Assembly: GCA_032207245.1 (NCBI GenBank)
Contig: CM063502.1
Location: forward strand, 112,931,199 to 112,995,198
Origin: Pardosa pseudoannulata
Taxonomy: Eukaryota; Arthropoda; Arachnida; Araneae; Lycosidae
Direction of reading: 5' to 3'
Length of the DNA stretch: 64,000 nt
Below are positions 2,871 to 53,479 of the stretch, one piece after another (position 1 is the first letter of the stretch; each line of letters starts with the position of its first letter). The translations under genes were made by a program, and so were the position numbers. The notes below the pieces were generated by a model. It searched no databases. It was not told where the DNA came from and worked only from the letters and a program-made list of their open reading frames with translations.

Positions 2871-3031
2871 TTTACATTCTTCTAAACATATGTTTTTGTA
2901 TCAAAAATGTTATGTATGATGTGTAAATGCATCATCAAAGAAGTGATTGTAACAAAACAAGCAAGACACTATTGACAATGGAAAGTGTTTTTATGCAATT
3001 TAAGAGATAAATTGTGTTTTTTTAACAGACA

Positions 3032-3037
3032 TTTATT
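3032..3037 (-). promoter_or_regulatory. Polyadenylation signal AATAAA of the tandem-exon gene
   Basis: TTTATT on the plus strand, i.e. AATAAA read on the minus strand, about 100 nt after the stop codon of the terminal exon. Spacing fits a short 3' UTR with cleavage near 3010-3020. Confidence 0.5.
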
Positions 3038-3137
3038 AGAAGAAATAAAATTACATTTCACATGCTTGAGTTTTATAACTTTAATAGTAAGTTATAAATA
3101 GAGGCATATCATTTGAATTATATTTTTTCTTCAAGAA

Positions 3138-3151
3138 TTAGTCGTTTTGAT
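3138..3151 (-). CDS. Terminal coding exon of the tandem-exon gene
   Basis: The flanking intron sequence (about 3160-3440) aligns with the standard array intron, so this position corresponds to an exon start. On the minus strand a T-rich tract ends in TTTATTTTAG at 3152. The exon then reads AT CAA AAC GAC TAA: with the phase-1 base from the previous exon this gives Asp or Asn, then Gln-Asn-Asp-stop. The acceptor is stronger than those of the repeat exons. The 3' UTR runs leftwards to the AATAAA at 3032-3037. Assignment is inferred from phase and position. Confidence 0.5.
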
Positions 3152-5605
3152 CTAAAATAAATGAAATAAAATAAGGATTACAGAAGATTATTTATAAATT
3201 AATAAGCAAAGCATAATACATATCTAGTCAAGAAATGTGTCTTCATTGAAAAACTTAGCTAAAGGTATTAAAGCAAATGAATAAATATTTATTCAAAATG
3301 CAAAAGCATGTGTTAAATATAAAAAGTGAAAACAATTAATTTTACAATATGATAATCACATGGACAATAACATGCACACAAATTTATATGTAAAAAAAGC
3401 TGATATATAAAATACAAATATTGTAAGAAACATATAAGAGTTTAAAATAGTACATGGTCTCTTTAGAAAGTAAAGCCATATATTTCATTGTGAAGCAATT
3501 GTACAAAATAATATCTTAGATTCACTGGGATAATCATATTTTGAGTTACCTAGCAAGCAGTTGCTTGCATAAAATTCTTAACCCAGAAAAACTCTTGTAA
3601 ATAAAGATCTTGCACAAAAGATTCTCTGTATCATATCTTATACAAGAGATGAAACAGATGACATAAATATGATCTCTACAGGTCACAATGTACTGTTAAC
3701 TGTATGGAAGATTTTTGCTATAGTTTTGTGTTAAACTCTGCAAATAAACAGCAGAAACTTTTCAAATAATTAAGCAGGCTTTAAGAATGAATGTTTCTCA
3801 TAAAAGCAAGACTACTGATGGTTCGATGTGTTTATGGTAAAAAAAAAACAAAGAATTTGATAAAAATCAGTACTGTAAACTTATCAACTCTTTCAATTCA
3901 AGAAAATGTACTTATGTGAAAGAATTTTTGCAACCATATAATCAGGAATATTTTTGCAGCTTCATAATCCTTTTTTTAAAAAGCGTATAAGTACAGAAGA
4001 ATATTTTTATTTTGAAAAAATTCAATATAGTAATCTTTTTATTATTATGAAAATGAGTGTTTTTAATACCAATAAAGTTGTTGACATCCCTTTCTGGAAT
4101 CATCAAGTCAGTGTCATATAGGAAAGTTTGCATATGTAACATTTTTATATTATTTCAAACTATTTATCAGATAGACCAACTATATTATGAAATTTCTTTG
4201 ATATAATGCAGTAAAAAATTTAAATTTTAAAAATTTATTCATGGGTGCACCAATAAAATATCCTTACTGTATAGATAATGAATGGATTTCAACATATGAA
4301 AGCACAAAAGTTTTATCAAATTAATTAAATACAAATAATAACATTGTAAGCTCTTGATAAAAACTAATGCAAATATAAAAAATATATATTTAAAATATTT
4401 TTACTAGTAATTTAGGAATAATCCTGTTTAGAATAAGCATAGAATACTGAATATCCTGCAATCCTGCATAGAATGAGAATAAATTTATTATACTCCTGAA
4501 TGAATTATTTAGATATTTTTTAAACACAAGTGCCTGAGTGCAATATTACCTAACAACTAAGTTCTTATAAATATTATTCAATTCTTTGTAACCTTATTAT
4601 CACTGTTAGTTTTTGTTGCTGGAAATACATATAAACTTTTTTCAGCCACTTTAAATTTGTTGCTTCATTTCAACTGAACACTGCAGGGTTAAGTTTTTTT
4701 TTAAATAATAGCATTATTTTTATGTTATTATTACAAACTATTATTATATTTCAATGTAAAATATTAAGTATATTTATTTATGAAAGTAATAAACACTTAT
4801 TTCTACTGTTTTATTAAAGCATAATCAAGCTATTTAATATTTAAGTAAAATTTCTGTTCAGAGCTCACCTCTCAATGTAATTGGCAAGCTGGTAATGGTT
4901 ACTAAAATTATATATATTTAACTGAAAGTGTTTCAAGATATTTTTATGTGAATTGTTGTTTTTTTTAAACTTATATTCTTTAAAATAAAGTTTTATAGAA
5001 AATGAATTTGTTGAAGTTTTCATATAACCTTACAAGATATAAAGAATTAGCAAACATAATAATGACAGTAATCTCAGTCTGGATGAATATAATACAAATA
5101 AGCTATAAATTTTGACAAACCAAGTGTCTGAAAAGAATTTCAGCATTCCTGAAAAGCTTAGATCATTCTAATATCTGCTTAATGATATAAGGAATCCACT
5201 GAAATATGGACTAGTTTTAATTATACTTTACTCCGGGGATAAAAGAAATGCACTGTCTATTACAATAATCCAAGATTTTAAATAAATTTTAACTGAGCTG
5301 ATACCAAAATTTTTTATCTACAGCAAAATATAAGTATTCAAATAATTAAAAATTCTATTGCATGCTCTATTTAATTTATACTGAAATGTGTTTACATTGT
5401 GTCATATTTTATGGAAAGACTAAAAGAATAAATACAAACTAATAATTATGCTTCATAAGAACTAGATATTCTAGCAATAAAGACTGCAGCATCTCTAAAT
5501 TACACATGCATTTCTATAAGTTAATTTTTATATTATTATTATTTTCTTGAAGCAAGTGTAAAATTTGGTTTTCAAAGAACGCTAAAAAAGTTTACTGTAC
5601 TTTAC
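3152..5605 (-). other. Last intron of the tandem-exon gene
   Basis: About 2.45 kb, alignable by eye to array introns over most of its length (for example AAGCAGGCTTTAAGAATGAA near 3774 and TCAGGAATAT near 3943). I see no exon inside it. Small frames here are intron sequence. Confidence 0.5.
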
Positions 5606-5704
5606 TTTTAGTTTCTCTTTTCTGCATGGATTTTTCATTTAATATCTTCATCATTTCAGAACCACGTGTAAGAGTTTCTGATTTCATCCTTTTAACTTTT
5701 TCAT
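5606..5704 (-). CDS. Repeat exon x1 (type A)
   Basis: Minus-strand 99-nt exon between TCTCTGCAG and GTAAAGT. Encodes EKVKRMKSET, LTRGSEMMKI, LNEKSMQKRETK after the split first codon. Its last base is A, not the usual G, so the junction codon to the terminal exon would be Asn instead of Asp. Last repeat before the terminal exon. Confidence 0.6.
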
Positions 5705-5737
5705 CTGCAGAGACAGAGATAAAAATGAATTACAGAT

Positions 5738-5740
<3 letters not shown>

Positions 5741-5806
<66 letters not shown>
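5741..5806. repeat. (TA)n microsatellite
   Basis: Sixty-six bases of TA dinucleotide in the intron just upstream (minus sense) of exon x1. Confidence 0.98.
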
Positions 5807-5808
<2 letters not shown>

Positions 5809-6332
5809 AATTATCATGACTATATAACAACTAACCTGGGGGAATAATATCATTTCAATGAAAAGATTAGTATAAGAATCTAAAAACAAAACAAAACAAA
5901 ACTTTTCTTTAGTATTAAAACTAAGGTGAAAGTTAATATTCCATTGTATTAATCAAATAGTATAGAACAAACACTCAACTTCTATACATGAAAATTCTTA
6001 TATAAAATATAAATTAACATATTAGAGTGTGTTAGAGTACATGGTCATTGTGGATAATAAAGTCATATATTATATTATGAAGTAACTGTATATAGCAAAA
6101 ACTAAAATCCACTAGGATAGATAATATTATGAGATAACAATATGGAATACAAGCTTATGATAATATATCATAAGAAATAGATATCCTACATATATCTATA
6201 AATCTATAGCATCTCTAAATTGTTTATATATTTTAAATCAGCAACAATTTATACTATTATTATTTTTTTGAAGGAAGTAAAAAGCTTGGTTTTTTTTAAG
6301 AAGAATAAATATTTTTTTTTAGTGTATATTAC

Positions 6333-6431
6333 TTTTAGTTTCACTTTTCTGCATGGATTTTTCGCTTAATATCTGCATCGTGGTAGAACCATGTGGAAGA
6401 GTTTTTTATTTTATTCTTTTAATTTTTTCAT
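6333..6431 (-). pseudogene. Repeat exon x2 (type A), in-frame stop
   Basis: Aligns fully with type A exons (LPHGSTTMQI, SEKSMQKSETK) and has AG and GT borders, but codon 8 after the split codon is TAA. If spliced in, translation would end here. Last base A. Either skipped or decayed. Confidence 0.6.
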
Positions 6432-7078
6432 CTAATGAGAAGGTGAAATAAAAGAAATTACAGATAACTATGTATACAAGAATAAACAAACATATATAAC
6501 ATCAACAGTGGAAAAATAATATTTCATTGAGAAGCATAGTATAACATTTAAAAAACAAAAAACTAAACTATTCTAAAGTATGAGAAAACTAGGGTCAAAT
6601 TTAATATTCCATTGTGTTAATCAAACAGTATAGAATATGTTCTATAATCTCTATACATAAAAATTCCTATATAAATATAAATTCTTTACAAAACATATTC
6701 AAGTATGTTAGAGTATACAGTGTTTTTGGAGAGTAAAGTTATATATAATATTGCGAATTGACTATATATAACAACTTAAATCCATTGTGGTACAATATTT
6801 TATCAGATAACTACTAAGCAGCTGCATGCTGAAGTGTCTAAGAACTACTAAAATAGTAGTTTATATTATTATGACCTATTTCATCCCTTGTAAAAGTAAT
6901 ACAGTAGAGTATACTCTCCGAAAGATTTGTGATACAGTTTTGTATGTAACTCTACAAGAAAAGCAGCAGAAACTTTTGAAATAGTTAAACAGGCTTTAAA
7001 AATGAATGTTTCTTATGAAAGCAAAACTATCCAATATTCATTGTTTCTGGTAAATACAAAGGACTTGATAAAGTTACA

Positions 7079-7150
7079 CCCTTACCAACTTGTTTCTCAA
7101 GTTGTTCCCTTACCAACTTGTTCAACTTCACCCTTACCAACTTGTTTAAC
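7079..7150 (+). repeat. Local triplication of an array intron motif
   Basis: CCCTTACCAACTTGTT occurs at 7079, 7107 and 7131 (periods 28 and 24), where other array introns have one copy of a similar CCCTTATCAACTTCTTC. A small tandem expansion beside the hAT insertion site. Confidence 0.8.
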
Positions 7151-7164
7151 ACAAAGAAGTGTAC

Positions 7165-7172
7165 CTTATGTT
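7165..7172 (+). repeat. Left 8-bp target site duplication of hAT element
   Basis: CTTATGTT, repeated at 12083-12090. In uninterrupted array introns the homologous site is a single CTTATGTG. Confidence 0.85.
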
Positions 7173-7725
7173 CAGCACCATATTATCGGCAGGGCACACA
7201 GGGCATGTGATTAGGGCCCACTAATTTCAGGAAATTAAAAATTTTTTAGATTCAGAGGTAATTTTGAAACAAATAAATTTTGTAGATTTAAAAATTAAAT
7301 GCTTTTATTCTATATACAAATTATGTGAGCTAAAATTTTCTAAGTTTTTCATTATTTCACAGAGTAAGTATAAAAATAAGTATAAATGTAAGTATAAATA
7401 CCCACAGATTTGTCATGGGTTTGCACTTAAACACTAAAGGCAAGAATGCAGGTCAATTTGCAAATGCAATCCACCAATCAGATGGCTAGATTTTGAGAAC
7501 TTTTCTAAAAAATGTTCTAATCACAAAATTGAGCTTTCTGATTAGTGGATTCCATTTGTGAAATGTTTGGAATATAATCTGCATAATAGCATTTCTTTTC
7601 AACCCCATGATCAAATAAAAAAAAATGCTTGTTGCATTTGCTGCTGTTTCTCTGACAGGGTCTGAAGAGCTGCATGGTTTGAAAATTTGAATTAATATAT
7701 TTATTGGTATGTTTTTACCAATAAA

Positions 7726-10264
7726 ATGAAATGTTCTTATAAGTATCCTTCTGGACCTTCAAAATGTCTGAAAAAAAAATAAATAAAAAAGATCAGCAAG
7801 AGAAAAAGCTGCAAGGTAGTATAGAACAATTATGCTTTTCTGCCTGTACAGAAACTCTGTTTCAGTTAACAAATAATTTGGATGGTACAGCATTGATAAT
7901 AATACTGATGGATTAGATGTAGCTACAACTTCAAATGTCCTTGACAGCAAAAATGAAACATGTTCAGATGGGAATGTATTTCCTTCCATTATCACACAAA
8001 CAGACTCAAATGGTATTTCTATTTAAAAGAAAATTATATTGATTTCATACTTAATGAAGATCCTGCTGTTTGGACTAATATTTCTGATGTGTTAAAAGAA
8101 CAATTTGTAATCCACCCACCTAGACAAAATATTGAAAAGATTAATTTAACAGAAAAAATAATTGAAAATGGGAAAAGATTCCTTAATGAAAATAATTTAT
8201 ATTGAATTATGAAAAATGGAGAAAAGGTAAAAGGAGAATGGCTTTTTTTATCCCCATCAAACTATTCAGTTTATTGTTATGTTTGCAAGTTATTTTCAAA
8301 TTGTAATTCTGCACTAGCAATTATAAGATTTAATGATTGCAAACATGTGTCAGAACAATTGTCAGAGCATGAGAACTCAATTTTTGATAGGAAAGCTGTG
8401 TGTGCATTGGCATCGAGTTTGAAAGCTACTTAGAGAATTGATTCACAACTAGATCTCCAGCAGGAATCTGAATGCAAGTACTGGAAATCAGCATTTACTA
8501 GAGTTGTTGGTGTTGTTAAGTATTTAGGAAAACAAGGTTTGTCCTTTTTTGGTGATAACGAGACTTTAGGTTCACCTTACAATATCATTTCTTGAGATCT
8601 CTGCAATTAATATCACAGTTTGACACATTCTTAGTTAAACACTTAAAAGATTACGGAAATCCAAGAAAAAAGCATGTACATTACTTGTCCTCCTCTATAG
8701 TAAGTGAATTTATTTCACTAATGTCAGGAAAAGTAACCAGAACAATTATAAAAGAAATACAGGAGTCGAAATATTTTGCAATTATAGTAGATTCCATTCC
8801 TGATATTATCCCAAATTGACCAACTATCATTTGTTGTAAGATATGTAGATTCATCTTTAAAACCTGTGGAAAGTTTTTATTACTTATTCCTATCCAAAGC
8901 CATGGTTCAGAACACTTAGAAAAATTAGTTTTTTCTACATTTTAAATAATTTTAATTTGGATATTATGAATATTAAAGGACAAAGCTATGGCAATGCAAG
9001 TAACATGTCAGGCAAATATTCTGGTTTGCAAGGTAGGATTAAGGCAATTAATACTCTTGAGGAATATATAGGCTGTTCAGCTCCCACATTGAATTTAGTG
9101 ACAAAATGCAGCATTGAAAGTTGTACTCAAGTTATGCCATTTTTTTTCTTTATTACAAAATTTGTATAATTTTTTTTCTGCATATCATTGGTAGAATATT
9201 TAAAAAGCTATATGCTGTAAAAATAGTTCATGTCCTATCTTAAAAAATCATTCAACAACTAGGGTATCCAAATGCAAAAACAACAAAATCTTTGCGAAAA
9301 ATTATGCTCAGATTATTAATGTATTGGGTGTATTATATGACAGTTTAGATGAATCTGCACTAACAAGAGAGAAAGCTTCTTAACTCTCTTCCAAATTACA
9401 AAACTTCGACAAAACTGTAAGTGTTATTGTCTGGGATACAATTCAGCAGTGGCTTAATAAAAGTAGCAAACAACTGCAAAGTAATTCAGAAAATCTAGCA
9501 AGTGTTTTAATGCTATTTAACTCATTGATCTCTTTCCTTCAATATGTTAGAAAAACTTTGATATTTAAGAAGAAGCTAAATTAACTATTGAAAATTCAAA
9601 TTATGTCATTAGTAGAAGGAAAAAAATGTACTAAAAAGTAGATTTCTAGGTGATAGTGATACTTCTTCTGTAGATCTCTCTCCCAGAGATAATTTTATAG
9701 TGACTTGTCTTTATGATTTGTGTGATTCTTTAATATTGAGTTATCATCAAGAAAAGTTTCATATGAATGTGTCCTAGAAAAATTTTCTTTTCTACTGAAT
9801 TCTGATAGCAATGAAGTCTTTAATGATTCTGAATTTTCTGATAGCAATGAAGTCTTTAAGCATGCTTATTCCAGCAGCATTATAAGGCTGATTTGGATGA
9901 TGGTTTTCCAAATTAATACATGCAATTTCTGCCAATTAAGTAGAAAGATGAGAGTATTCTTGATATGTTGCAAAATTTGCATAAACTTAACATGAGGGCA
10001 ACATTTCAAAATGTAGATTTAGTTTTAAAATTATTTTTAACTTTACCAATTAGTAACTGTACTGGTGAACAAAGTTTCTCACTTCTGAAAAGGCTAAAAT
10101 CTTCATTAAGATCAACCCTCAGTGAGGACAAACTCAATGCATTAGCAATTCTTTGTTTTGAAAATGATATTACATCTAATTTAGATTATACTGATATAAT
10201 TAATGAGTTAGCAAGCCAAAAAATTAGGAAAAAAAAAAACAATTTCCTAGTTTTCATACTTTGA
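7726..10264 (+). pseudogene. hAT transposase (ZMYM1-like), multiple stops and frameshifts
   Basis: Starts MKCSYKYPSGPSK, the usual N-terminal KYPSG of this transposase type. A lysine-rich segment follows, then DFILNEDPAVW with PPRQNIEKI (about 8045-8150), then a TTF-type zinc-finger piece YCYVCKLFS (about 8280). Next comes a DUF4371-like stretch with EFISLMSGKVTRTIIKEI (8700-8770). The C-terminal hAT dimerisation region is at 9965-10264 (LFLTLPISNCTGEQSFSLLK, LNALAILCFENDI). At least six stops or shifts break it, so it cannot make transposase. A domesticated gene is unlikely given the lesions. Confidence 0.88.
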
Positions 10265-12054
10265 GGTAAATTTTAAAAAGTTTTTCTGCATTAAAAAATT
10301 CAAGTTTCTCATATTAAGATTAAAATCCTATTTTAAAATTTAATACATCTTTAATCCTACAAGTACACTATATATATTTTGTAATGTTTTTAGTTTTCCA
10401 TGTATGCAACTTTTTCATTTAAACTATTGAAATATATTTTTGAGGATAAATTTTGAACTGTTAGAATAAATATTTTAAAGCTTTTTATTTAAAATAGAAA
10501 TATAACAAAGGCATGATTAAATGTTTAATATTTATACACCTGTTAGTATCAAATTATATTTTCATGCTTATAAGTATCATACTTTATATAAACTTTCACT
10601 TTGTGAAATTAAGTTTATTCAGGTAATACTACAATATTTTTAAATTAAAATTTGCATTTTTTATCTATTTGCTTTAATCATGCCTACAGAACCTTAATTC
10701 TATTTTTATTGTCAACTTAATTTATAACTATCCTTTTAGACAGTTTTTAGAAGTCTCTTACTTTCTTTATCTAAAAATTTAAGTTATCTTAAAGCAAAAT
10801 CAAACCGATCCTAATTCTTTGTGTTAATATTTCTTTTAAAATTTAAATTCATTAATTGAATAAATGAGTGTTCCTTCACTTCAAGAAAACTTTGTGAAAA
10901 TAATAATTATTAAAAAAGAGATGCAATTCTTGTCTGAAAGCCTGCAAAAGTCAAGGAAAAGGGAAATTTTCCCCTGAGGAAATTGAATTTGTTCTGTAGT
11001 TAGTTAACTTGCTTTCCTGATACTCGCAACCCTTACCTCTCTAAAAAATCTCATATATTAAACTATTAGAATAAATTTTAGACAATAAATCTGAATATAA
11101 ATTTTAAATAATAAATCTGAATAGATTCAGAACTTAATTTTATAGAAATGACATGATTGAATGTTTAAATTTTTTATTTCATTTAATCTCAAACTATTGA
11201 TATATTCAGATAAGTATTTGCTTTTAGCATTTTTAGAAATATTTCTTTTAATTATTCATGCATCACAAATGATAAATACAAGTGCAAATGAAGTGTTTGT
11301 CCAGCTTAGTAATCAATGCCCAAGTGGCAGAAACACTGCAACATGGCGACATTATCACTGACAATGAAGACCTTTTGTAAACCACTTTTGTCTGCCCAAT
11401 TTGAAAATTTTCTCCTCAGTTTTCAAACTTTTTGTTTTTGGAAGCTTTAGCCAAATTTTTGACAGGGAGAACACTCATATACATATGATGAGTCTTATTT
11501 TTAGGGAGGAAGGGAGGCTAGAGATTTTGTAGCTTCAAACTCTGTTACATTTTTGTAAATTATAACTACTTTATTAAAATAAATCGTTTTTTTTTAAAAA
11601 TACTAATTTTATTTGTCATAGAACTGTCTGAAAAACTTAATAATGAAAAGAATAATAAGAATAATGAGAAATAGCATGTTTCAAATAAAATGATTAAACA
11701 TTACTAGTTTAATACCAAATTTATTCATTAAAATTGTATGTAAATTTTGTGGACAGGGTATAAAATTCTAATAGCTTGTTTCAGACAGCTACAAAATTTT
11801 CTGCCACTGGGCTCAAGGCAAAAACTAGAGGAGGGGCATGTATCCAGGGTACCAAATGAAGATTAAAGATGTATGGGGATAAATATCAGAGGGGGGGGGG
11901 TCTAGAAAAACAAATACTTGCTTTGGGTAAATGATAGTTTATATCCTAGTAATATTAGTAAATTCTATGTACACAGTCATCAATGCAAATCTTTCAACTA
12001 TACATTAATAAAATGTAATAATCTACAAGGGCCCAAAACATACTCTCTGCCCTG
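10265..12054 (+). other. hAT 3' non-coding part
   Basis: AT-rich sequence between the transposase stop and the right terminal repeat, with a G10 run at 11891-11900. No credible coding frame. Confidence 0.6.
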
Positions 12055-12082
12055 AACCTAAAATCTTGATAATCTGACCCTG

Positions 12083-12090
12083 CTTATGTT
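12083..12090 (+). repeat. Right 8-bp target site duplication of hAT element
   Basis: CTTATGTT, identical to 7165-7172; array intron sequence (GATTTTGAAACATATAATCA) continues directly after it. Confidence 0.85.
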
Positions 12091-12829
12091 AAACAGATTT
12101 TGAAACATATAATCAGGAATGCATATGCAACACAATACTCCTTTTAAAAAACTTATCTGCACAAGAAGTTCTGTTACATTGTGTTTGAAGAACTAAGATT
12201 TAACTAAGTGTTCTGCCATATGAGAGCTAATGAGCTTACCTGAGAAGCAAACACATCATAAAAACAAAATAATAATGCATATTAAAATCTGTACATAATC
12301 AATTTTAATTATGATTCATTTCAGGAATTAAGGAAATAAACTACATACTAGAGTAGTCATAAATTTTAAAACCAAGTTTAAGTGAAATGATTCCAAATTT
12401 TTTTATAACTAAAGAAAAAGTTAAGAATTCAAATTACTAAAAATTTCTTTGCATAGTCTAAAGAATTATCACTGCAATATGTTAAAATTGTATTCCCAAA
12501 TTTTATGGAAAGACTGAAAGAATACATCCTAATAATAATATATTAACTTGATAAAGTTAAGTACTTCACCCTTATCAACTTCTTCAACTCAAGAAAATGT
12601 ACCTTATGTGAAAGAGATATGAAACATATAATCAGGAATGCATATGCAACATAATATTTCTTTCTGAAAAAACTTATCTTCCAGGAAGTTTTGTTTTCTT
12701 GTGTTTGTGCTTGGACAACTAAGATCTGTTGTTCTGCAACATGAGGGCTAATGAGCTTACCAAAGAAGCAAACACTTTAATTTCTTAAATTCTCTAAGAA
12801 TAACAAAAATTACTTTTAGTGTGTTTTAC

Positions 12830-12928
12830 CTTTAGTTTCTCTTCTCTGGACGGATTTTTCATCTAATATCTTCATCCCTGTTGAACCATGTGGAAGAGTT
12901 TTTGATTTCATGCTTTTAACTTTGTCAT
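12830..12928 (-). CDS. Repeat exon x3 (type A)
   Basis: 99-nt open exon, acceptor TCTCTGTAG, donor GTAAAA. Encodes DKVKSMKSKT, LPHGSTGMKI, LDEKSVQRRETK. Last base G, so the junction codon is the usual Asp. Confidence 0.65.
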
Positions 12929-14110
12929 CTACAGAGACATAGATGAAAATGATTTACAGATGACTATATATATAATAATAATAATCATAAATATTTAATA
13001 ATTTAGCTGAGAAAATAATATCTTTGCATTGAAAAGTTTAGCACAATTTTCAAAAAACAAATATTTTAACTTCTTTAGTATTAAAAAACTAAGGGGAAAT
13101 TAATATTCCATTATGTTAATCACATAATATAAAACATAAACTCAAATCTTTATACATGAAAATTTCGATAAAAAATATAAATTCTGTACTAAACAAATTC
13201 CAGTATGTTAGAGAACATGGTCTTTGTGGAAGGTAAAGTAATGTATTATATTGTGAAGTAACTGTGCATAACAGAACTGAAATCCACCTGATAGATCATT
13301 TTATAATGTAACTACTAAGCAGCTGCATACTGAAGTGTCTACAATTTCAAAGGAAAAAAAAAGAGAATATCATAATCATGTTTCATCTCCTGAAAAAAAT
13401 GTATGGTATTGCATACTCACTGAAAGATTTAAAATAAAATTTTGTATTTAACTCTGCAAATAATAAAAAATAAATAAATAATAAAAGCAAAAATTTTTTA
13501 AATATAAAAACAGATTTTTTTTAAATATTTCTTACACAAACAAAACTACTGAATGTTCAAAATATTTACAGTAAATACAAAGAACTTGATAAAAAGTAAG
13601 TACTTACTTCTTATCCATTTATTAAACTGAAGAAAATGGATCTTATGAGAAAGAGATTTTGAAACATATAATCAGAAATGTACATGCAACATAATGTTAT
13701 TTTTTGAAAAAGCTTATGAGCATAATGTTTTTACAATGTATTTGAAATCCTAAGATCTACTGTTTTACAACACGAGGGAGAATGAGCTTACATGAGAAGT
13801 CAACCTCATAAAATTAGAATAATAATAATATGAACTACTGCCAATGATCTACACTAATTATGTTTCATTTCAGAAATTAAGAAAATAAACAACATACTAG
13901 AGTTGTCCTAGATTTTTAAAACAAGTTTACTTGAACTGTTTCCAAATTTTTATAACTATATCAAAATTAAAGCATCTAACTACTAAAAGTATCTTTCTAT
14001 TTTCTACTGAATTAACACTGAAATGTGTTTAATTTGCCCTCAAATTTTATGGAAACACTAAAGGAATACAACCTAATAATATATCATAAGAAATGGATAT
14101 TAGTATTATA

Positions 14111-19168: not shown

Positions 19169-19172
19169 TTAA
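19169..19172 (+). repeat. Left TTAA target site of piggyBac-like element
   Basis: TTAA, repeated at 27741-27744. The paralogous empty site at 34789-34792 has one TTAA in otherwise matching sequence. Confidence 0.9.
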
Positions 19173-19180
19173 CCCTATAA

Positions 19181-42843: not shown

Positions 42844-43853
42844 CTACAGATAGAGAGATAAAAGTGAATTGCAGATGACTATAACTATTCCAATAATCAA
42901 ACATTTATAACAACTCACCTGGGAAAAGAGTGACATTTCATTAGAAAGCTTAGTATATGTTTCTAAACACCAAAAAATAACTATTATTTAGTATTATAAA
43001 ACTAAGGGGAAATAACTATTCCATTTTTTAATGACATGTATTCGCAACTCTATACATGAAAACTCCCATATAAAATAAAAATTCCATACTAAGCATATTC
43101 AAATACATTAGAGTACATGTTCATCAAGAAAAGTAAAGTCATATATTATATTTTGAAGTTACTCTATATCACAACAACTTAAATCCATTTGGATACATAA
43201 TATGATGAGATATAACTATCAAACAGTTACATGGTGAAATGTCTAAGATCTCCAAGAAGGGTAAGTAATATCGTTATCATTTGTTATGTCTCCTGTAAAT
43301 ATTATATGGTAGCGTATACTCTCAGAAAGGTTTGTGGTATATTTTAGTGTTTTTACTCTGAAAAAAAAAACAGCAGAAATGTTTGAAATAATATAACAGG
43401 CTTAAAAATGAATGTTTTTTACAAAAGCAAAACTACTGAACATTCAAAATGATTGTGGTAAATACAAAAATCTTGGTACAGTTAGGTACTGTATTTTATT
43501 AACCTCTTTAACTGAAGAAAATGTACTTTCTGTGAAAGATCTTTTAAAGCATGTAATCAGGAATGCCTTTGCAATATAATATTCCTTTTTGAAAAAACTT
43601 ATCAGCACAGGAAGTTCTGTTACATTCTGTATAGACCGCTATAATGTATTGTTTTGCAACAAGAGGGCCAATAAACTTAGCTAAGAAGTCAAAATCATCA
43701 TAAAAATTGAATAATAATATATATGAAGCACTATACATGATCTGTTTTAATTATACTTTATTTCAGGAATTAAGGAAATAAACTGCATACTAGTGTAAAC
43801 CTAGATTTTAAAAACACGTTTAACTGAACTGATTCCTTTAATAATTCCTTTAC

Positions 43854-43952
43854 CTATAGTTTCTTTTTTCTGCATAGATTTTTTATCTAATATTATTATT
43901 GTTGTAGAACCATGGGGAAGATATTTTGATTTTGTCCTTTTGACTTTCTCAT
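43854..43952 (-). pseudogene. Repeat exon x21 (A-prime lineage): open but no AG at the usual site
   Basis: Open frame HEKVKRTKSK, YLPHGSTTII, ILDKKSMQKKETI, donor GTAAAGG. The usual acceptor is replaced by TTCATTC. The frame continues upstream (SQHQKALMKKF) to TTGTGCTCAG ending at 43991; using that acceptor would give 137 nt and break phase. Confidence 0.5.
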
Positions 43953-44449
43953 GAATGAACTTTTTCATGAGGGCTTTTTGATGTTGGCTTCTGAGCACAA
44001 GCCAACATTGATATAATATCTGCCTAATATTACAGTTGAACCGCTGGCAAATGATTAAAATTAATTATTTTTTATTTCATGAATTGAAAAAATAAACTAT
44101 ATATTACAGTAACCCCAGATTTTTTACACAAGTTTAACTCAGGTAATTCCAAAAATTTTTTTTTAACTGCAGTGTAATTTAAGTATTGTAATTACTAAAA
44201 TTTCTTTGCATACTCTGAACCACACTGAAATATGTTCAAATTATGTTTACATTTTATGGTAAGACTAAAGTAATACAACCTAATAGTAACATATCATAGG
44301 AATTGGATATTCTAATAATAATGTGTCTAGGATCTGTAAATTGGATATGCATTTTTAACAGCTAACTTTTATATTATTATTGTTTTGTAGCAGCAAATGA
44401 AGAAACTGGTTTTTTAAGAATAATAAAAATTTATTTTAGTATACTTTAC

Positions 44450-44548
44450 TTTTAGTTTCTCTTATCTGCATGCATTTTTCATCTAATATCTTCATCGTTG
44501 TAGAACCATGTGGAAGAGTTTTTGATTTCTTTCTTTTTACTCTTTCAT
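44450..44548 (-). CDS. Repeat exon x22 (type A)
   Basis: 99-nt open exon, acceptor GTCTGTAG, donor GTAAAGT. Encodes ERVKRKKSKT, LPHGSTTMKI, LDEKCMQIRETK. Last base is A, so the next junction codon would be Asn. Confidence 0.62.
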
Positions 44549-44584
44549 CTACAGACACAGAGATAAAAATGAATTATATATGAT

Positions 44585-44586
<2 letters not shown>

Positions 44587-44621
<35 letters not shown>
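44587..44621. repeat. (TA)n microsatellite
   Basis: About 35 bases of TA in the intron beside x22. Confidence 0.97.
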
Positions 44622-44623
<2 letters not shown>

Positions 44624-45825
44624 GAATAATCTAAATTATATAACAACTTACCATAGGAATTATTATTTCATTAATAAGCTTAGTATAAGTTTAAAAAAAC
44701 AAAATAATTAAATATTCTTCAGTACAAAAATATTCCACTGTGTTAATCAAAATTTACAGAACATGTACTAAAATCTCTATGCATAAATATTGCTATATAA
44801 AATATAAATTCAGTTCAAAAACTTATTTGTGTATGTTAGAGTACATGGTTCTTGTGAGAAATAAACTCATATATTACATTGTGGAATAACTGGTATTAAC
44901 AAATTTAATCCACTAGGATAAATAATGAGATAACTACCAAGCTGCAACATGATTAAGTGTCTAAGATCTCTAAAAAAAGCAGAATATATCATTATCACCT
45001 GTCTCATTTCTAGTAAAAGTAACATCATACAACATACATTCTCAAAATGATTTCTGAAATAGTTTTGTGTTCTATTCTGGAAAAAAACAGCAGAAACTTT
45101 TAAAATAGTTAAACAGGCTTTTAAAATGTGTGTTTCTTACAAAAGCTAAACTAATGGATGTTCAAAATATTTATGGTAAGTGCAAATAACTTGATAAAGG
45201 AAAGTACTTCATTCTTGAAACTTCTTCAAATGAATAAAGTGTACCTGAAATGAAAGAGCTTTTGGAACATATAATCAGGAAAGTATATGCAACATAATAT
45301 TCCTTTTTATAAAGCATATCTGCACAGGAAGTTCTTTTACATTCCATTTGGAGCACTACTATCTATTGTTTTCAACATAAGGACTAATGAGCTTAGCTTA
45401 GAAGCTAAAATCGTTAAACAATCGGAATAATATTATATTTGAACCACTGCACATGATCTAACTCATTTATGGTTCATTTCTTGAACAAAGGAAATAAACT
45501 GCATACTAGAGTAGTTCTAGATTTTAAAACCAAAGTTTAACTTAACTGATTCTAAATTTTTATAACTAAAGTAAAATTATACTAAAAATTTCTTTGCTTA
45601 CTCTACTGAATTTATAGTCATATATATTTTGTAATTGCACTCAAATTTTATGAAAAGACTAAAGAAGTACAACCTAATAGTGATATATCATAGGAAATAG
45701 ATACTATAATAATGTAGTCTGTAGCATTTCTAATCAGCTAATTTTTATACTATTAATATTTACTTGCAGGAAGGGAAAAATCTGTTTTTCTAAGAATAAT
45801 AAAAATTTGGGTTAGTATAGTATAC

Positions 45826-45924
45826 CTTTTGTTTCTCCTTCCTTCAATTTTATTTCCTCTACTATCTTCACCTTTGTGGAACCATATGGAAGAGTTTTTG
45901 ATTTTGTCCTTTTAACTTTTTCAT
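45826..45924 (-). CDS. Repeat exon x23 (A/B hybrid type)
   Basis: 99-nt open exon, acceptor CTCTGTAG, donor GTATACT. Begins like type A (EKVKRTKSKT, LPYGSTKVKI) and ends like type B (VEEIKLKEGETK), suggesting recombination between subfamilies. Confidence 0.62.
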
Positions 45925-46037
45925 CTACAGAGACAGACATAAACATGAATACAGAGGACTATAATTATACCAATAATCAAACCTATACAGCAAGTAACCT
46001 GAGAAAATAATATCATTTCATTGAAAAGCTTAGTATA

Positions 46038-46714
46038 ACATAGGTGCCAACTTCTAAAAGGGAAAAATCTGTTGTTTTACTGTATTTATTTGTAGTTTAT
46101 TGCAGTAATGACATTGTTTTGCAAATGGATAAAAATATACACTTTAAAAAAGGAAAAATTGCAAGATTTATTTAATCTATAAAAGATATATTTAGCTATT
46201 ATTCACAAATTCTTTAAAAGTAATAAATATCCGTAGTTTATTGAAATAACATTTTTTTAGTGTATTTATAATTAAAAAGTAAAAAATTGCAGCACTGTTT
46301 CTCCAATATGTAAAACAATTCTATATGTCTTTAGCATTGTCAATTGCTGTTGGACAAGATTTTGCTTCTTTCAAAAATTGTTTGTCAAAATCATTTTCAA
46401 AACATTCTAAACAGTTACTGCATTTCACAATTAATAACTCTTGTAATGTTTCATTAGACAGAGATTGTCTAAAATCAGCTCTGATATTTTTTATTAGAAT
46501 GTATACTCACTCATCATTCACATTTTACTTCTTGCCAAAATACATAACTATTAATATAAGGAAGAAGAATGCAAACATGGAATTTGTAGGGAAATTTTAG
46601 GGATTTTATAATATATCGCTGAAAATGGAAAAAATAGTTTTTTGATCGGAAGATCAGAAACACATCAAAACATCAGAAAACGTCTGAGTATATCGGAAAC
46701 ATTGGCATCTATGA
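46038..46714. mobile_element. 677-bp terminal-inverted-repeat element (MITE-like)
   Basis: Interrupts the array motif GCTTAGTATAAGTTTC. Ends are ACATAGGTGCCAAC and, reverse-complemented from the right, TCATAGATGCCAAT. TATA flanks both sides (46034-46037 and 46715-46718). A 91-codon plus frame inside (46325-46600) has no family I recognise. Superfamily uncertain. Confidence 0.7.
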
Positions 46715-47819
46715 TATAAGTTTCAAACAATAAAAATTTAACTATTGTTTAGTATGAAAAAATTAAGGTGAAATTTAATATTCATTGTATTAATCAAAAC
46801 GTATAGGCCATGCACTGAAATTTCTATACAAAAAAATTCCTATATAAAATATAAATTCCGTACAAAACATATTTCAGTAAGTTAGAGTACAAGGTCTTTG
46901 GGGAAAGTAAAGTTATATGACGTTGTGAAGTAAATGTATATAACAACAACTGAAATCTACTGGGATAGATCATTTTATCAGATATCTACGAAGCAACTAC
47001 ATGTTGAAGTGTCTAAGGTCTCCAAAAGAAGAAGAAGATATTGTTATCACCTGTTTCATCGCTTGTAAAAGTAACATGTTAGTGCACACTCTCAGAAAGA
47101 TTTCTGATATAGCTTTTTGTTTAACTCTGCAAATAAACAGCAGAAAGTTTAGCAAGAGTTGAGAAGGCCTTAAAAATTGATGTGTCTTACAAAAGCAAAA
47201 TTACTGAATGTTCAATATTTTTACAGTAAACACAAAAAAAAAATGATAAAAATTTTAACGATTTTATTTAAAATTAATTTGATGGCATTTTCATGTAGCA
47301 TTAGTAATATATTTACAAAAGTTCTGTAGCTTTCTATCAAACATAATAATGCAAACAGTCTCATTTACTTATGATTCCAGAGGAGAATGGAAAAAAAAAA
47401 CTAAAAACTTTACTAAACAAGGTTTTTGAAAAGAATTTTACCTTAGCTCAGTAGCCAAAATCATCATAAAATCTTCCTAAAATTACAGATGAACCACAGC
47501 ACTTTCTGAATTTTTATAACTGCAGCAAAATTTAAGAATTATAATTACTAAAAATTTCTTCGCATACTTTACTGAATTATCACTAAAATGTGTTTAAATT
47601 ATGATAATATTTTATGAAGAGACTAAAGGAATGCAACCTAATTATAACATATACAAACTGGATATTCTAAGAATAATGTCTCAAGCATCTCTAAATATCG
47701 CATGAATTTCTAATCAGCTAATTTTTAAAATTATTTTTATTCTCTTCCAAAAATGAGAAAATCAGGATTTCTTAGAGCGTTAGATATAGCATCACGTATA
47801 GAAATAACATAGACTTTAC

Positions 47820-47918
47820 CTTTAGTTATTTCTTTATTTATTCTTTTCACACTTAATTCCTTCTTTGCAGTCGAACCACTTTTAGGACTTTTCCTCCTCA
47901 ACCTTTTCTCTCTTTCCT
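47820..47918 (-). CDS. Repeat exon x24 (type C)
   Basis: 99-nt open exon, acceptor CTCTGTAG, donor GTAAAGT. Encodes (E)ERERRLRRKS, PKSGSTAKKE, LSVKRINKEITK. Twin of x18. Confidence 0.65.
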
Positions 47919-48421
47919 CTACAGAGACACATAAATGTAATTACAGATAACTATAGCTATACCAAGAAGAAAATATCATTTCATTCAGAAGCTCAGTATC
48001 AGTTAAAAAACAAAAAAGAAACTTTTCTTTACTTTAGTATATAAAAAGTAATGTTAATATCAATATTCCATTGTGTTAATCACTTAGTATATTATGTGCA
48101 CTCAAATTTCTATGCATAAAAGCTGATATATAAACTATAAATATCATATATAACGTATTCAAGCATGATAGATTACATGATCTTTGTTCAGAGTAAAGTC
48201 ATATATTATATTGTGTATATAACAGTAGAGTAATTGTATACAACAACAAATTAAATTTACTGGGATAGATCATTTTATCAGATAACAACCAAGCAGGTAT
48301 ATGCTGAAGTGTCTAAGAAATAAAAAAAGACATATCATTGTCATCTGTTTCATCTTTTGAAAAAATTACATGGTAGCACAAACTCTCAGATTAATTTAGA
48401 TTTACTTTTGTGTTTAATACT

Positions 48422-48423
<2 letters not shown>

Positions 48424-48453
<30 letters not shown>
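48424..48453. repeat. Poly(A) run in array intron
   Basis: About 30 A residues after CTGCA, the recurrent expansion site of the array intron. Confidence 0.95.
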
Positions 48454-48457
<4 letters not shown>

Positions 48458-49204
48458 TAAATAAGCAGAAACCTTTGAAAAAGTTAAACAGGCCTTAAAA
48501 AGAAATGTTTCACACAAAAAGAAAACTATTAAATGTTCAATATGTTTATGGTAAATACAAAGAACTTTATCAAGATAAGTAATGCACCCTTATCAACTTC
48601 TTCAACTGAAGAAAATGTGTCTTATGTGTAAAAGCTTTTGAAATATATAATCAGGAATGTATATACCACATAATATTCCATTTCAAAAAAGCTTATTTCT
48701 TCATTAAGCATTAAGATCTACTTTATTGCAACACGGGGGCTAACGAGCTTAAATGAAGAGTCACAATCCTCATAAAATAGGTATAATAATAATATAAACC
48801 ACTGTACATGATCTACTTTTACTATGATTTATTTCAGAAATTAAGAAGATAAATAACTTAGTAGATTAGTTCTAGATTTTTAAAACAAGTTTAATTGAAT
48901 TAATACCAAGGGTTTTAAAACTAAATTGATATTGAAGCATTGTAAATACTAAAATGTTCTTTTCATATTCTATAGAAATAACACTGAAATGTGTTTAATT
49001 TATGCTAAAATTTTGTGGAAAAATTAAAGGAACACAACCTAATAATAATATATCAAAGAAAATAATTATTAGTTAAGTTTGTAGCACATCTAAATTGTAC
49101 CTACATTACTAATCAGCTAATTTTTATATTACTATTATATTCTTCAAGGAAGAGAAAAATCTGGTTTCCAAAAAATACTAAAAATATCTTTTACTGTACT
49201 TTAC

Positions 49205-49294
49205 CTTTAGTTTCTGCTTCTCGTCTTATTTGCTCTAATACCTTCATCGTTTCAGGACCATATGGAGGAGAATCTGATTTTGTATCTTTTTCAT
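49205..49294 (-). CDS. Repeat exon x25 (short B-prime type, 90 nt)
   Basis: Same as x19: EKDTKSDS, PPYGPETMKV, LEQIRREAETK; acceptor CTCTGTAG, donor GTAAAGT. Confidence 0.65.
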
Positions 49295-49952
49295 CTACAG
49301 AGACAGAGATAAAAATTAATTACAGGTGACTATAAATATAGCAATAATCAAACCTATATAAAAACTAACCTGGGAAAAAATTATCATTTCATTGAAAAGC
49401 TTAGTATATGCCTCAAAGAAATAAAAGCTTAACTATTCTTTGGTATGAAAAAATTAAGGAGAAATTTAATATTCCATTCCCTTAATGAAAATTATAGAAT
49501 ATGCACTCAAACCTCTATACATAAAAATTCTATATAAAATATAAATTCCCTACAAAGCATATTCCATTATGTTGGAATACATGTTCTTTGTGGAAAGTAA
49601 ATTCATATATTATATTGTGATGGAACTGTATATAACAACAGCTTAAATCAACTTAGATACATCATTTTATTATATAAATTCCAAGCAGTTGCATGCTGAT
49701 GTGTCTAAATTTTCAAAAGTAGGCAGAAGATATCACTATCAACTCTTTCACCTCTTGTTAATGTAATAACACGGTAGCTCATACTCCCAAAATTTTCTAA
49801 TATAGTTTTGTGTTTAACTTTGCAAATAAACAGGAGAAACTTTTGAAATAGCTAATTAATCAGCTAATTTTTATATTATTATTATTTACTTGCAAGAAGT
49901 GAAAAATCACATTTTCTAAGAACAATAAAAAATTGTTTTTACTGTACTTTAC

Positions 49953-50051
49953 CTTTGGTTTCTACACTCTCCATTGTAATTTTCTTTGATATTTTCATTG
50001 TTGTGGAAGTAGAAGGAAGAGAATCTGATTTTCTCCTTATAACTTTTTCAT
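49953..50051 (-). CDS. Repeat exon x26 (type B)
   Basis: 99-nt open exon, acceptor ATCTGTAG, donor GTAAAGT. Encodes EKVIRRKSDS, LPSTSTTMKI, SKKITMESVETK. Closer to the B consensus than its twin x20. Confidence 0.65.
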
Positions 50052-50912
50052 CTACAGATAGAGAGATAAAAGTGAATTGCAGATGACTATAACTATTCCA
50101 ATAATCAAAACTCCCATATAAAATAAAAATTCCATACTAAGCATATTCAAATACATTAGAATACATGTTCATCAAGAAAAGTAAAGTCATATATTATATT
50201 TTGAGGTAACTCTATATCACAATATCTTAAATCCAATTGGATACATAATATGATGAGATATAACTATCAAACAGTTGCATGGTGAAATGTCTAAGATCTC
50301 CAAGAAGGGTAAGTAATATCGTTATCATCTGTTTAGTCTCCTGAAAATATTATATTGTAGCGTATACTCTCAGACAGGTTTGTGGTATATTTTAGTGTTT
50401 TTACTCTGTAAAAAAAAAGAAAAAAAAAACAGCAGAAATGTTTGAATTAATTTAACAGGCTTTAAAAATGAATGTTTTTTACAAAAGCAAAACTATTGAA
50501 CATTCAAAATGATTATATTAAATACAAAAAACTTGGTAAAGTTAGATACTGTATTTTATTAACCTCTTTAACTGAAAAAAATGTACAGCCTGTGAAAGAG
50601 CTTTTAAAGCATATAATCAGGAATTCATATGCAACATAATATTTGTTTTTCAAAAAACTTATCAGAACAAAAAGTTCTGTTACATTATGTATGGACCACC
50701 ACAATGTACTGTTTTGCAACAAGAAGGCTAATAAACTTAGCTCACAAGCAAAAATCTTCATAAAAATTGAATAATAATATATGTGAAGCACTATACATGA
50801 TCTATTTTAATTATACTTTATTCAAGAATTAAGGAAATAAACTGCATACTAGTGTAGACCTAGATTTTAAAAACAAGTTTAACTGAACTGATTCATTTAA
50901 TAATTCCATTAC

Positions 50913-51011
50913 CTTTAGTTTCTTTTTTCTGCATGGATTTTTTACCTTATATCTTTATCGCTGTGGAACCAAGGGAAAGATATTTTAATTTTGTCCTTTT
51001 GACTCTCTCAT
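50913..51011 (-). pseudogene. Repeat exon x27 (A-prime lineage): stop and no AG at the usual site
   Basis: Encodes HERVKRTKLK, YLSLGSTAIK, I then TAA, resuming GKKSMQKKETK. The usual acceptor is changed (TT before the exon). The alternative TTGTGCTCAG about 40 nt further out is conserved with x17 and x21. Confidence 0.5.
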
Positions 51012-51508
51012 AAATGTATTTTTCATGATGGATTTTCGATGTTTTCTTCTGAGCACAAGCCAACATCGATGTTATATCTGCCTAATATTATAGTTGAACA
51101 GCTGGCAAATGATCAAATTTAATTATGCATTATTTCATGGATTGAAAAAATAAACTATATATTACAGTAACCCCATATTTTTATATAAGTTTAAGTCATA
51201 TAATTAAAAATTTTTTTAACTGCAGTGCAATTTAAGTATTTTAATTACTAAAATTTCTTTGCATACTCTGAATTACACTGAAATATGTTCAAATTATATT
51301 TACATTTTATGGTAAGATTAAAGTAATACAACCTAATAATAACATATCATAGGAACTGGATATTCTAATAATAAAGTCTCCAGCATCTCTAAATTGCACC
51401 TGCATTTCTAAACAACTGATTATTCAAATTATTATTATTTTCTTGCAAAAAGTAAAAAATTTTGATTTCTTAGAGCAATAGAAAATACTTATAGAAATTA
51501 CACTTTAC

Positions 51509-51604
51509 CTTTAGTTTTTTCTTTCTTTATTCTACTTCCACCTAATTCCTTCATTGTAGTTGAAGCACTTTTAAGACTCTTTATCCTCCTTTTTTCTTCT
51601 ACAA
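51509..51604 (-). CDS. Repeat exon x28 (C-like type, 96 nt)
   Basis: Open exon, donor GTAAAGT. With the outer acceptor CTCTGTAG it is 96 nt and encodes VEEKRRIKSL, KSASTTMKEL, GGSRIKKEKTK. A second in-frame acceptor (GTTGTAG) six nt inside would give 90 nt. Intermediate between types A and C. Confidence 0.6.
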
Positions 51605-52584
51605 CTACAGAGACATAGATAAAATTAAATACAGATAACTATAGTTATATGAATAAACTTAACTGTATAACACCTAATCTAGGTGAAATATCATTTCATT
51701 GAAAAGCTTAGTTAAAACAAAACAAAAAAAAACTTATTTACTTTATTATAAAAAAAGTATGGTGAAAATAGATATTCCATTGTGTTAATTACTATGTATA
51801 TAATGTGCAATCGAATTTCTAAACACAAAAGTTGATATTTAAAATATGAGTATCATACAAAATATATTAAATATATTACAGTACATGTTCTTTCTGAAAA
51901 GTAATGTCATATATTATATTTTAAAGTAACTGTATATAACAGCACCTTAAATCTGCCGGGATACATCATTTTATAAGTTAACGACCAAGTAGCTGCACCC
52001 TGAAGTGTCTAAGAACACTAAAAAAGGCAGATGATAGCATTATCATCTGTTTCATCTCTTGAAGAAATTACATGATAGTGCAAACTTTCAGAAACATTTA
52101 TGATATAGAATTCTGTTGAACCCATAAAAATTACAGCAGAAAAAATATTTGAAAAAAAAAATCTAAAAACTTTACTAAACCGGGTTTTTGAAAAGAATTT
52201 TACCTTAGCTCAATAGCCAATATCCTCATAAAATCTTCCTAAAATTACAGATGAACCACAGCACTTTTTGAATTTTTATAACTGCAGCAAAATTTAAGAA
52301 TTATAATTACTAAAAATTTCTTTGCATACTCTGCTGAATTATCACTAAAATGTATTTAAATTATGATAATATTTTATGGAGAGAATAAAGGAATGCAACC
52401 TAATTATAACATATTATACAAACCGGATAGTCTAAGAATAATGTCTCGAGCATCTCTAAATATTGCATGCATATCTAATCAGCTAATTTTTAAAATTACC
52501 TTTATTCTCTTAAAAAAACAAGAAAATCAGGATTTCTTAGAGCATTAGAAATAGCATCACGTATAGAAATATCATAGACTTTAC

Positions 52585-52683
52585 CTTTTGTTATTTCTTG
52601 TTTCATTCTTTTCACACTTAATTCCTTCTTTGCAGTCGAACAACTTTTAGGACTTTTCCTTCTCAACCTTTTCTCTCTTTCCT
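52585..52683 (-). CDS. Repeat exon x29 (type C), first repeat exon in the window
   Basis: 99-nt open exon, acceptor CTGTGTAG, donor GTAAAGT. Encodes (E)ERERRLRRKS, PKSCSTAKKE, LSVKRMKQEITK. Upstream of it (rightward) the array intron continues to 53479 and then stops; no preceding exon was identified. Confidence 0.63.
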
Positions 52684-53479
52684 CTACACAGACAAATAAA
52701 ATTAATTACAGATAACTATAGCTATACCAAGGAGAAAATATAATTTCATTCAGAAGCTCAGTATCAGTTAAAAAACAAAAAAGAAACTTTTCTTCATTTT
52801 AGTATATAAAAACTAAGGTTAATATCAGTATTCCATTGTGTTAATCACTTAGTATATTATGTGCACTCAAATTTTTATGCATAAAAGCTAATATATAAAC
52901 TATAAATATCATATATAATAGATTCAAGTATGATAGTGTACATGATCTTTGTTCAGAGTAAAGTCATATATTATATTGTGTATATAACAGTAGAGTAACT
53001 GCATACAACAACAAGTTAAATCCACTGGGATAGAACATTTTGTCAGATAACAACCAAGTAGATACATGCTGAAGTGTCTAAGAAATCAAAAAAAGACATA
53101 TCATTGTCATCTGTTTCATCTTTTGAAAAAATTACATGGTAGCACAAACTCTCAGAAAGATTTAGGATTTACTTTTGTGTTTAACTCTGCAAAAAACTAA
53201 AAAATAAGAAATAATAAAAAGAAAAATATAAGCAAAAACCTTTGAAAAAGTTAAATAGGCCTTAAAAAGGAATGTTTCTTACAAAAACAAAGCTATTAAA
53301 TGTTCAATATGTTTATGGTAAATATAAAGAACTTTATCAAGATAAGTAATGCACCCTTATCAACTTCTTCAACTGAAGAAAATGTGTCTTATGTGTAAAA
53401 GCTTTTGAAATATATAATCAGGAATGTATATACCACATAATATTCCTTTTCAAAAAAGCTTATTTCTTCATTAAGCATA

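Follow-up and report, generated by a model that had tools for sequence, protein, structure and literature searches.

Tandem symmetrical phase-1 exons in the spider Pardosa pseudoannulata as the probable part of a very large gene for charged repeats

The PEVK region of titin (connectin) is encoded by small symmetrical phase-1 exons that carry repeats of about 28 residues; the charged, disordered chain shows block duplication, and its length is varied by splicing. In maize, the long terminal repeat (LTR) element Bs1 has captured a spliced host transcript. Schistosome micro-exon genes, as excerpts of one account describe them (PMC4671649), have a central coding part made mostly of symmetrical exons, which is taken as favouring frame-preserving alternative splicing, and some of their products have unstructured regions; the micro-exons, shorter than 36 bp, lie between two long end exons, the 5' one of which bears a signal peptide. 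Here we describe a stretch of 64,000 nt from the genome of Pardosa pseudoannulata (the window, on a contig referred to as C6) that holds a tandem array of short exons encoding charged modules and is probably part of a very large gene of symmetrical phase-1 exons. Genome-wide searches covered the 2.4-Gb genome in 1949 contigs.

A profile of the exon with 15-nt flanks detects 29 full copies in the window, all on the minus strand with exon ends from 52683 to 5606, as well as the 5' stub of one further copy near 14167 (Table 1). Outside the window, over 100 kb of scaffold on either side (264 kb in total, 5.3 kb of it N), the best other exon match has an E-value of 1.1. Each array unit consists of an intron and one exon and spans roughly 1 to 1.5 kb, and the G+C content is about 26% across most of the array. 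In a multiple alignment 26 of the 29 copies measure 99 nt, one (e02) 96 nt and two (e05 and e11) 90 nt, every length being divisible by three. The GT donor is present in all 29, the AG acceptor in 26 and an open phase-1 frame in 26, and 25 copies possess all three; the final exon base is G in 25, A in three and T in one. Once the preceding G is added, one exon supplies one module, typically of 33 residues, for example DEKVKRTKSKTLPYGSTKVKIVEEIKLKEGETK (e07). Because intact exons are multiples of three with phase 1 at both ends, their gain, loss or skipping keeps the frame. The preliminary description of this DNA had reported minus-strand exons of 99 nt (rarely 96 or 90) in phase 1 at both ends, 25 of 29 with open frame and both splice sites, and the alignment returns the same picture and the same count.

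The four copies that are not intact comprise e28, which has an internal TAA, and a sub-lineage without an acceptor (e03, e09 and e13), in which e03 and e13 also contain stops. A longer upstream extension of these three exons was considered and rejected, as by eye the region is an inverted repeat with no in-phase acceptor. Given this lack of an acceptor and the stops in two of the three, they are taken as decayed.

The degree of retention was compared with neutral expectation. Along a tree of 26 units, from which e03, e09 and e13 were left out and in which two tips beside a gap or insertion have long branches, a mean of 1.3 of 26 exons remains intact against 25 observed, and none of 1000 runs reaches 25. 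A second simulation took all 29 copies with exon-only branch lengths, combining intron or exon composition with full or half branches (1000 runs each); the mean numbers intact in the four settings are 0.4, 2.3, 0.7 and 3.2 of 29, the maximum over 4000 runs is 22, and again no run in any setting reaches 25. For the open frame alone, the observed value is reached in 2 of 1000 runs under the mildest setting and in 0 of 1000 under each of the other three. Of the 26 copies that have an acceptor, 25 are open in the proposed frame and none in either of the other two same-strand frames. These results show that the window exons are under selection for an open frame and splice sites.

Exons of this family are joined to one another in intronless copies elsewhere in the genome. 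On contig C4 the copy lies inside a small LTR retrotransposon whose two direct LTRs (L029:578-810 and 2010-2242) are each 233 bp long and 100% identical. Its reading frame runs from an ATG at L029:940 to a TAA at 1579-1581, encodes 213 residues and holds two identical 33-residue modules, DENNKRTDTKNLPSCSTTMEKVDAKTPKKGRTK. A genome-wide search with this frame locates the source exons, separated by introns, on contigs C65 and C58. The copy contains six exons in the order in which they occur on C65, namely start, EENK, DENN, DENN, GKK and DEKG (65 of 69 nt), with 94-100% DNA identity to the C65 exons. Each of the five internal junctions coincides with the GT and AG that bound the source intron; the start exon includes 5' untranslated region (UTR), and the junction between element and exon is the start exon's acceptor. 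The DENN units match the window exon profile with E-values of 1.9e-9 and 6.8e-9. The capture breaks off 4 nt short of the end of the 69-nt DEKG exon, so the stop codon of the copy is not that of the gene; DEKG as the last exon of the gene was rejected, since DEKG is internal and has a GT of its own, and the C4 stop results from fusion with element sequence. A second frame downstream looks by eye like a pol remnant and has no Pfam match.

The copy on contig C12 (L034, C12:163938501-163942500) lies in a rearranged LTR locus with 509-nt inverted arms that are 100% complementary, and its intronless exons, joined at exon ends, read DENN-GKK-EREI-NQND-DENN-DENN, the final DENN being represented by 24 nt. 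GKK is joined directly to EREI, and on C65 DEKG lies between them; this may reflect exon skipping or an allele without DEKG. A search of contig C58 with the related exons finds neither DEKG nor EREI. On C65 NQND is downstream of DENN (83.7k versus 105k), and the NQND-DENN join on C12 thus runs against genomic order, the source being either a copied back-spliced circular RNA or an allele with a block duplication, which the locus readily makes. Direct copies of 172 nt flank the captured exons. The two copies differ in the exons joined, and in both the relatives of the window exon series are spliced in the predicted phase-1 register, which upholds the earlier proposal of coding exons in a gene of symmetrical phase-1 units. 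Because complementary DNA (cDNA) copies sit in the genome, the gene would once have been expressed in the germ line. Retrotransposon-borne copies of this kind provide splice evidence from genome sequence alone.

On the minus strand of C65 the source range begins at 123.6k, with the start exon at 123.4k followed by EENK, DENN, DENN, GKK, DEKG, EREI and relatives as far as 73.6k, several of which have E-values above 0.05; array exons lie downstream of the start exon on the same strand, at 11.6k-4.7k. The exon lengths on C65 and C58 are 102 nt (EENK), 99 and 99 (DENN), 147 (GKK), 69 (DEKG), 96 (EREI) and 102 (NQND), all multiples of three. The 30 best matches between introns of C65 and of the window reach 65-78% over 240-1400 bp, and the acceptor tracts are similar; the window units therefore belong to the same duplication series. 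The start exon, MPPKKKAMPKKKVIPKRKARR..., has a Lys/Arg-rich beginning that resembles a nuclear localisation signal and, by eye, no hydrophobic stretch or evident signal peptide. In the mechanism that we propose, each unit of an intron and a usually 99-nt exon, in phase 1 at both ends, would encode one module of about 33 charged residues, the array would grow and shrink by duplication of units and blocks, and the window exons would be spliced into one transcript with a start exon of the C65/C58 type or a copy of it. The product predicted from these sequences would be a long, basic, disordered, intracellular and perhaps nuclear chain, whose length and charge may matter more than its sequence. 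The start-exon and junction sequences permit a direct search for the transcript.

Joined together, the 25 intact window exons give a product of 818 residues with 28.9% K+R, 17.4% D+E and a net charge of +94. The charged fraction of these copies is 0.46 against 0.31 in stop-free neutral runs and the hydrophobic fraction 0.22 against 0.37, with 0 of 150 runs as extreme in either case; the net charge per module is no tighter than in the 150 runs. Part of this retained composition could reflect selection for purine-rich splice enhancers and not for protein. In 23 pairs at intron divergence 0.1-0.2, exons have 0.35 gaps per 100 bases and introns 2.2-2.5; in more diverged pairs exon gaps rise to 2.2-3.5, nearing the intron rate of 3.5-5.0. 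Across 18 aligned units most 20-base blocks diverge by about 0.3, but the 40 bases upstream of the exon show 0.21 and 0.18, among the lowest values, and a block of the downstream intron is as low (0.17).

Database searches return no recognised relative. Nine joined window exons and the C4 reading frame give only Pfam matches below the curated cut-offs (best E-values 0.055 and 0.016, respectively), PDB searched by sequence yields nothing credible (matches at E 0.35-0.5 are taken as noise), and Rfam has no match in the window at gathering scores. None of 7996 candidates scored in a protein database against 459 residues of joined exons attains E <= 10. Titles and abstract openings revealed no publication that we recognise as dealing with this gene, and we do not claim its absence from print.

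Like titin PEVK, the locus has small symmetrical phase-1 exons with one repeat each, a charged chain and block duplication; unlike it, it has no P/V-rich sequence (P 2.1%, V 4.5%), and its modules match no Pfam family above cut-off and no PDB chain. With schistosome micro-exon genes, as far as the excerpted account describes them, it shares symmetrical exons, but the exons here measure 69-147 nt (90-99 nt in the window) and the relatives' start exon, judged by eye, lacks an evident signal peptide. A micro-exon gene, to which the preliminary description had likened the layout, is accordingly rejected on exon size, 90-99 nt versus less than 36 bp in that account. The C4 copy recalls maize Bs1 in that a spliced host transcript lies between LTRs; here, however, the host is an animal, the gene is a repeat gene without known relatives, the LTRs are identical and a further piece of the gene family sits in a second LTR locus. 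Descriptively, the locus is a gene of symmetrical phase-1 repeat exons: exon lengths agree throughout, apart from a single 98-nt copy of e08 on contig C88, and splicing in register is seen for the relatives only, in the C4 and C12 copies.

Taken together, the array is best explained as part of a very large gene of symmetrical phase-1 exons, a reading in which we have reasonable confidence. Several observations weigh against it, and those considered here concern the borders of the gene. No window exon occurs in any cDNA copy. Genome-wide, the start exon is found on C58, on C65 and in the C4 copy and not on C6, where the 264-kb stretch reaching 100 kb beyond the window array contains none. On C65 about 62 kb between the last relative and the array has no match, and on C58 the start exon (29k) follows the array (142k-126k) on the same strand at a distance of about 97 kb. 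In phase 1 from its acceptor the start-exon 5' UTR meets a stop 15 codons in, which prevents translation from passing out of an upstream array through the start exon; the C58 order therefore possibly reflects two tandem genes. The gene with the start exon, DENN, GKK, EREI and NQND would then end before the array, and the array would belong to a paralogue next to it, with a start exon of its own that has diverged or is missing from the assembly. This alternative, which the missing start exon around the window array would also suit, has in our judgement a substantial chance of being correct, if less than an even one. Against it, the array on C65 is downstream of the start exon on the same strand, and the C6 flanks are unreliable owing to scaffold gaps. 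As the start exon precedes the array on C65 and follows it on C58, the window array may belong to one gene or the other; tandem genes would alter the gene borders only and not the nature of the exons.

The remaining points against a single large gene concern constraint on the protein and the condition of other copies. Pooled over 300 pairs of the 25 intact exons (e03, e09, e13 and e28 left out), the NG86 ratio of nonsynonymous to synonymous divergence (dN/dS) is 0.97 (dN 0.375, dS 0.388); codon positions 1, 2 and 3 diverge by 0.294, 0.324 and 0.297 in the 18 aligned units; and exons and introns have similar substitution rates whatever the divergence class (26 copies give 325 pairs, 287 of which align in both flanks). 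Among 22 close pairs (13 between contigs, intact copies only, and 9 within the window) there are 23 nonsynonymous and 2 synonymous changes, a ratio of 2.9 that does not differ from neutral (p 0.21). Over all pairwise alignments 25% of exon gaps and 24% of intron gaps are multiples of three; because all 29 window lengths are multiples of three, the non-triplet exon gaps are put down to misaligned diverged pairs. In the fetched stretch of C88 only 6 of 10 complete copies are intact: one at 80326 has a stop in the first full codon, one at 85669 has no acceptor, one at 79066 is degenerate, and the e08 copy at C88:85076 (L030:5076) has a 1-nt deletion, a real frame break that leaves 98 nt. The genome-wide listing marks stops on C299 and C359 at places matching broken C88 copies, including the e08 counterpart, and a broken e08 version may be common to these three contigs. 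Such findings, together with the three window copies without acceptors and the three with stops, would suit an array of once-functional exons now drifting neutrally, at least in some haplotypes. We nevertheless judge decay unlikely, since 25 of 29 copies are intact where 4000 neutral runs give 22 at most, composition is retained, 7 of 8 complete copies in the C58 stretch are intact and the e28 stop is absent from the C308 copy. We consider it very improbable that the repeat is purine-rich non-coding sequence and owes its open frame to composition and recent duplication. The exon is 49% A and 20% T, and all 26 copies with acceptors keep one antisense frame open (40-121 codons in 12 copies examined), which also counts against the favoured gene; yet simulations with exon composition leave on average 4.8 of 29 copies open, or 9.4 at half branch lengths, the two other same-strand frames are closed throughout, and related exons are spliced in frame behind an ATG. 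When sense stops are forbidden, simulated antisense frames are open in a mean of 10.8 or 14.1 of 26 copies and 0 of 150 runs reach 26; we reason that the rarity of Tyr, His and Gln codons in the sense product may keep antisense stops scarce. Scarcely credible is the proposal that the 33-residue sequence is itself a gene of a mobile element and that the array consists of nested copies of that element. Two copies do lie inside LTR loci, but the C4 frame, searched genome-wide, has 17 matches limited to C4, C12, separate exons on C58 and C65 and, weakly, C16, though the C4 LTR family is many-copied (40 of 608 first-look candidates were scored, and about 4.4 kb separates the LTRs in three further pairs listed), and the array exons have introns with conserved acceptor tracts.

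In these exons the amino-acid sequence is hardly constrained, whereas frame, splice sites and charged composition are kept. The preliminary description had named dN/dS near 1, combined with frame-breaking indels at chance frequency, as evidence against a gene. The former is indeed found, with equal codon positions, but the window is strongly depleted of stops, of lost splice sites and of lengths that would break the frame. The very large gene favoured above would thus be a natural example in which coding sequence retains its frame, splice signals and composition while the encoded amino acids drift at about the intron rate, and the many copies within one genome allow such drift to be measured. 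A more ambitious version, which we regard as rather doubtful, would unite the observations in one gene of more than 40 interchangeable phase-1 exons whose number and order vary by haplotype; its long, basic, disordered protein would be selected for frame, length and charge and not for sequence, and its germ-line transcripts would twice have been copied into LTR loci, on C12 in circularly permuted order as from back-spliced RNA.

The assembly bears directly on copy number. The window exons are divided between two scaffold pieces of round length, and contig C88 is exactly 115,000 bp. The round lengths of 30,000, 25,000 and 115,000 bp suggest that a Hi-C scaffolder cut the sequence here; the flanks at 1-1813 and 57114-64000 may therefore be non-native. 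At 97.5-98% similarity, the block with e15-e17 matches the one with e21-e23, and the block with e18-e19 the one with e24-e25; a single base separates e14 from e20, and their flanks align less well. C58 carries this series once, in the order e12, e13, e14 ... e19. Probably e20-e25 repeat e14-e19 as a second haplotype placed alongside, but a genuine duplication may be involved, since C58 differs from both by 2-3%. Given the scaffold pieces and the probable haplotype overlap, 29 is no reliable copy number, and the fixed set of 29 copies in one 50-kb array first proposed finds no support. The accompanying suggestion that exon number or choice varies fares better, as C4 and C12 join different exons and exon content differs between contigs. 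Beyond its 99% overlap with the window from 57013 to 50914, C88 continues in the 5' direction and adds a degenerate copy and seven others of types e05-e11, four of which are intact; the array therefore reaches past the window's gap. Genome-wide there are at least 99 exon matches, at least 69 of them on seven other contigs (C16, C58, C65, C88, C299, C308 and C359), at least 28 on C6, all inside the window, and one each on C4 and C12. Scaffold gaps and haplotypes thus distort counts of tandem exons.

Table 1. Exon copies and scaffold features of the window.
Feature	Length	Coordinates	Strand	Remarks
Scaffold piece	exactly 30,000 bp	1914..31913		holds e20-e29; bounded by 100-N gaps
Scaffold gap	100 N	31914..32013		meeting point of near-identical series e14-e19 and e20-e25
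Scaffold piece	exactly 25,000 bp	32014..57013		holds e01-e19; bounded by 100-N gaps
Exon e01	99 nt	52585..52683	-	AG/GT, open; type A, EREKRLRRKSPKSCSTAKKELSVKRMKQEITK
Exon e02	96 nt	51509..51604	-	AG/GT, open
Copy e03		50913..51011	-	decayed; no AG acceptor, one stop
Exon e04	99 nt	49953..50051	-	AG/GT, open
Exon e05	90 nt	49205..49294	-	AG/GT, open
Exon e06	99 nt	47820..47918	-	AG/GT, open
Exon e07	99 nt	45826..45924	-	AG/GT, open
Exon e08	99 nt	44450..44548	-	AG/GT, open; last base A; C88 counterpart with 1-nt deletion
Copy e09		43854..43952	-	open; no AG acceptor
Exon e10	99 nt	42745..42843	-	AG/GT, open
Exon e11	90 nt	41998..42087	-	AG/GT, open
Exon e12	99 nt	40623..40721	-	AG/GT, open
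Copy e13		40028..40126	-	decayed; no AG acceptor, one stop
Exon e14	99 nt	38903..39001	-	AG/GT, open
Exon e15	99 nt	37547..37645	-	AG/GT, open
Exon e16	99 nt	36150..36248	-	AG/GT, open
Exon e17	99 nt	34803..34901	-	AG/GT, open
Exon e18	99 nt	33443..33541	-	AG/GT, open
Exon e19	99 nt	32350..32448	-	AG/GT, open
Exon e20	99 nt	31432..31530	-	AG/GT, open; 1 difference from e14
Exon e21	99 nt	30507..30605	-	intact; identical to e15
Exon e22	99 nt	29106..29204	-	intact; identical to e16
Exon e23	99 nt	27755..27853	-	equals e17 except last base (T); e17 3'-flank homology stops at about 27741
Exon e24	99 nt	17861..17959	-	intact; identical to e18
Exon e25	99 nt	16768..16866	-	intact; 3 differences from e19
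Exon e26	99 nt	15403..15501	-	AG/GT, open
Stub of further copy		14114..14167	-	acceptor region and first exon bases only
Exon e27	99 nt	12830..12928	-	AG/GT, open
Copy e28		6333..6431	-	both splice sites; internal TAA; C308 counterpart open
Exon e29	99 nt	5606..5704	-	AG/GT, open; last base A

Between e23 and e24 about 8.5 kb (19172-27741) contains no exon copies and has no counterpart between e17 and e18; the part at 20000-21000 recurs elsewhere in the genome. Open reading frames of the flanks, listed by length and composition, appear by eye to be mostly mobile elements, and none can be assigned to this gene. Across the 100-N gap at 1814, positions 1-1813 and 1914-2425 show by eye retroelement reading frames of different types, as would be expected of a scaffold join at this point. 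A non-LTR retrotransposon occupies 57541-62445 on the plus strand, immediately beyond the 25-kb piece (RVT_1 and RNase H by Pfam, endonuclease by eye), and a relative of it lies about 93 kb to the left in the flank. On C16, relatives of the upstream exons at 3379762-3394588 are on the plus strand and array exons at 3435811-3542420 on the minus strand, an opposite-strand arrangement that represents an inversion or a misassembly.

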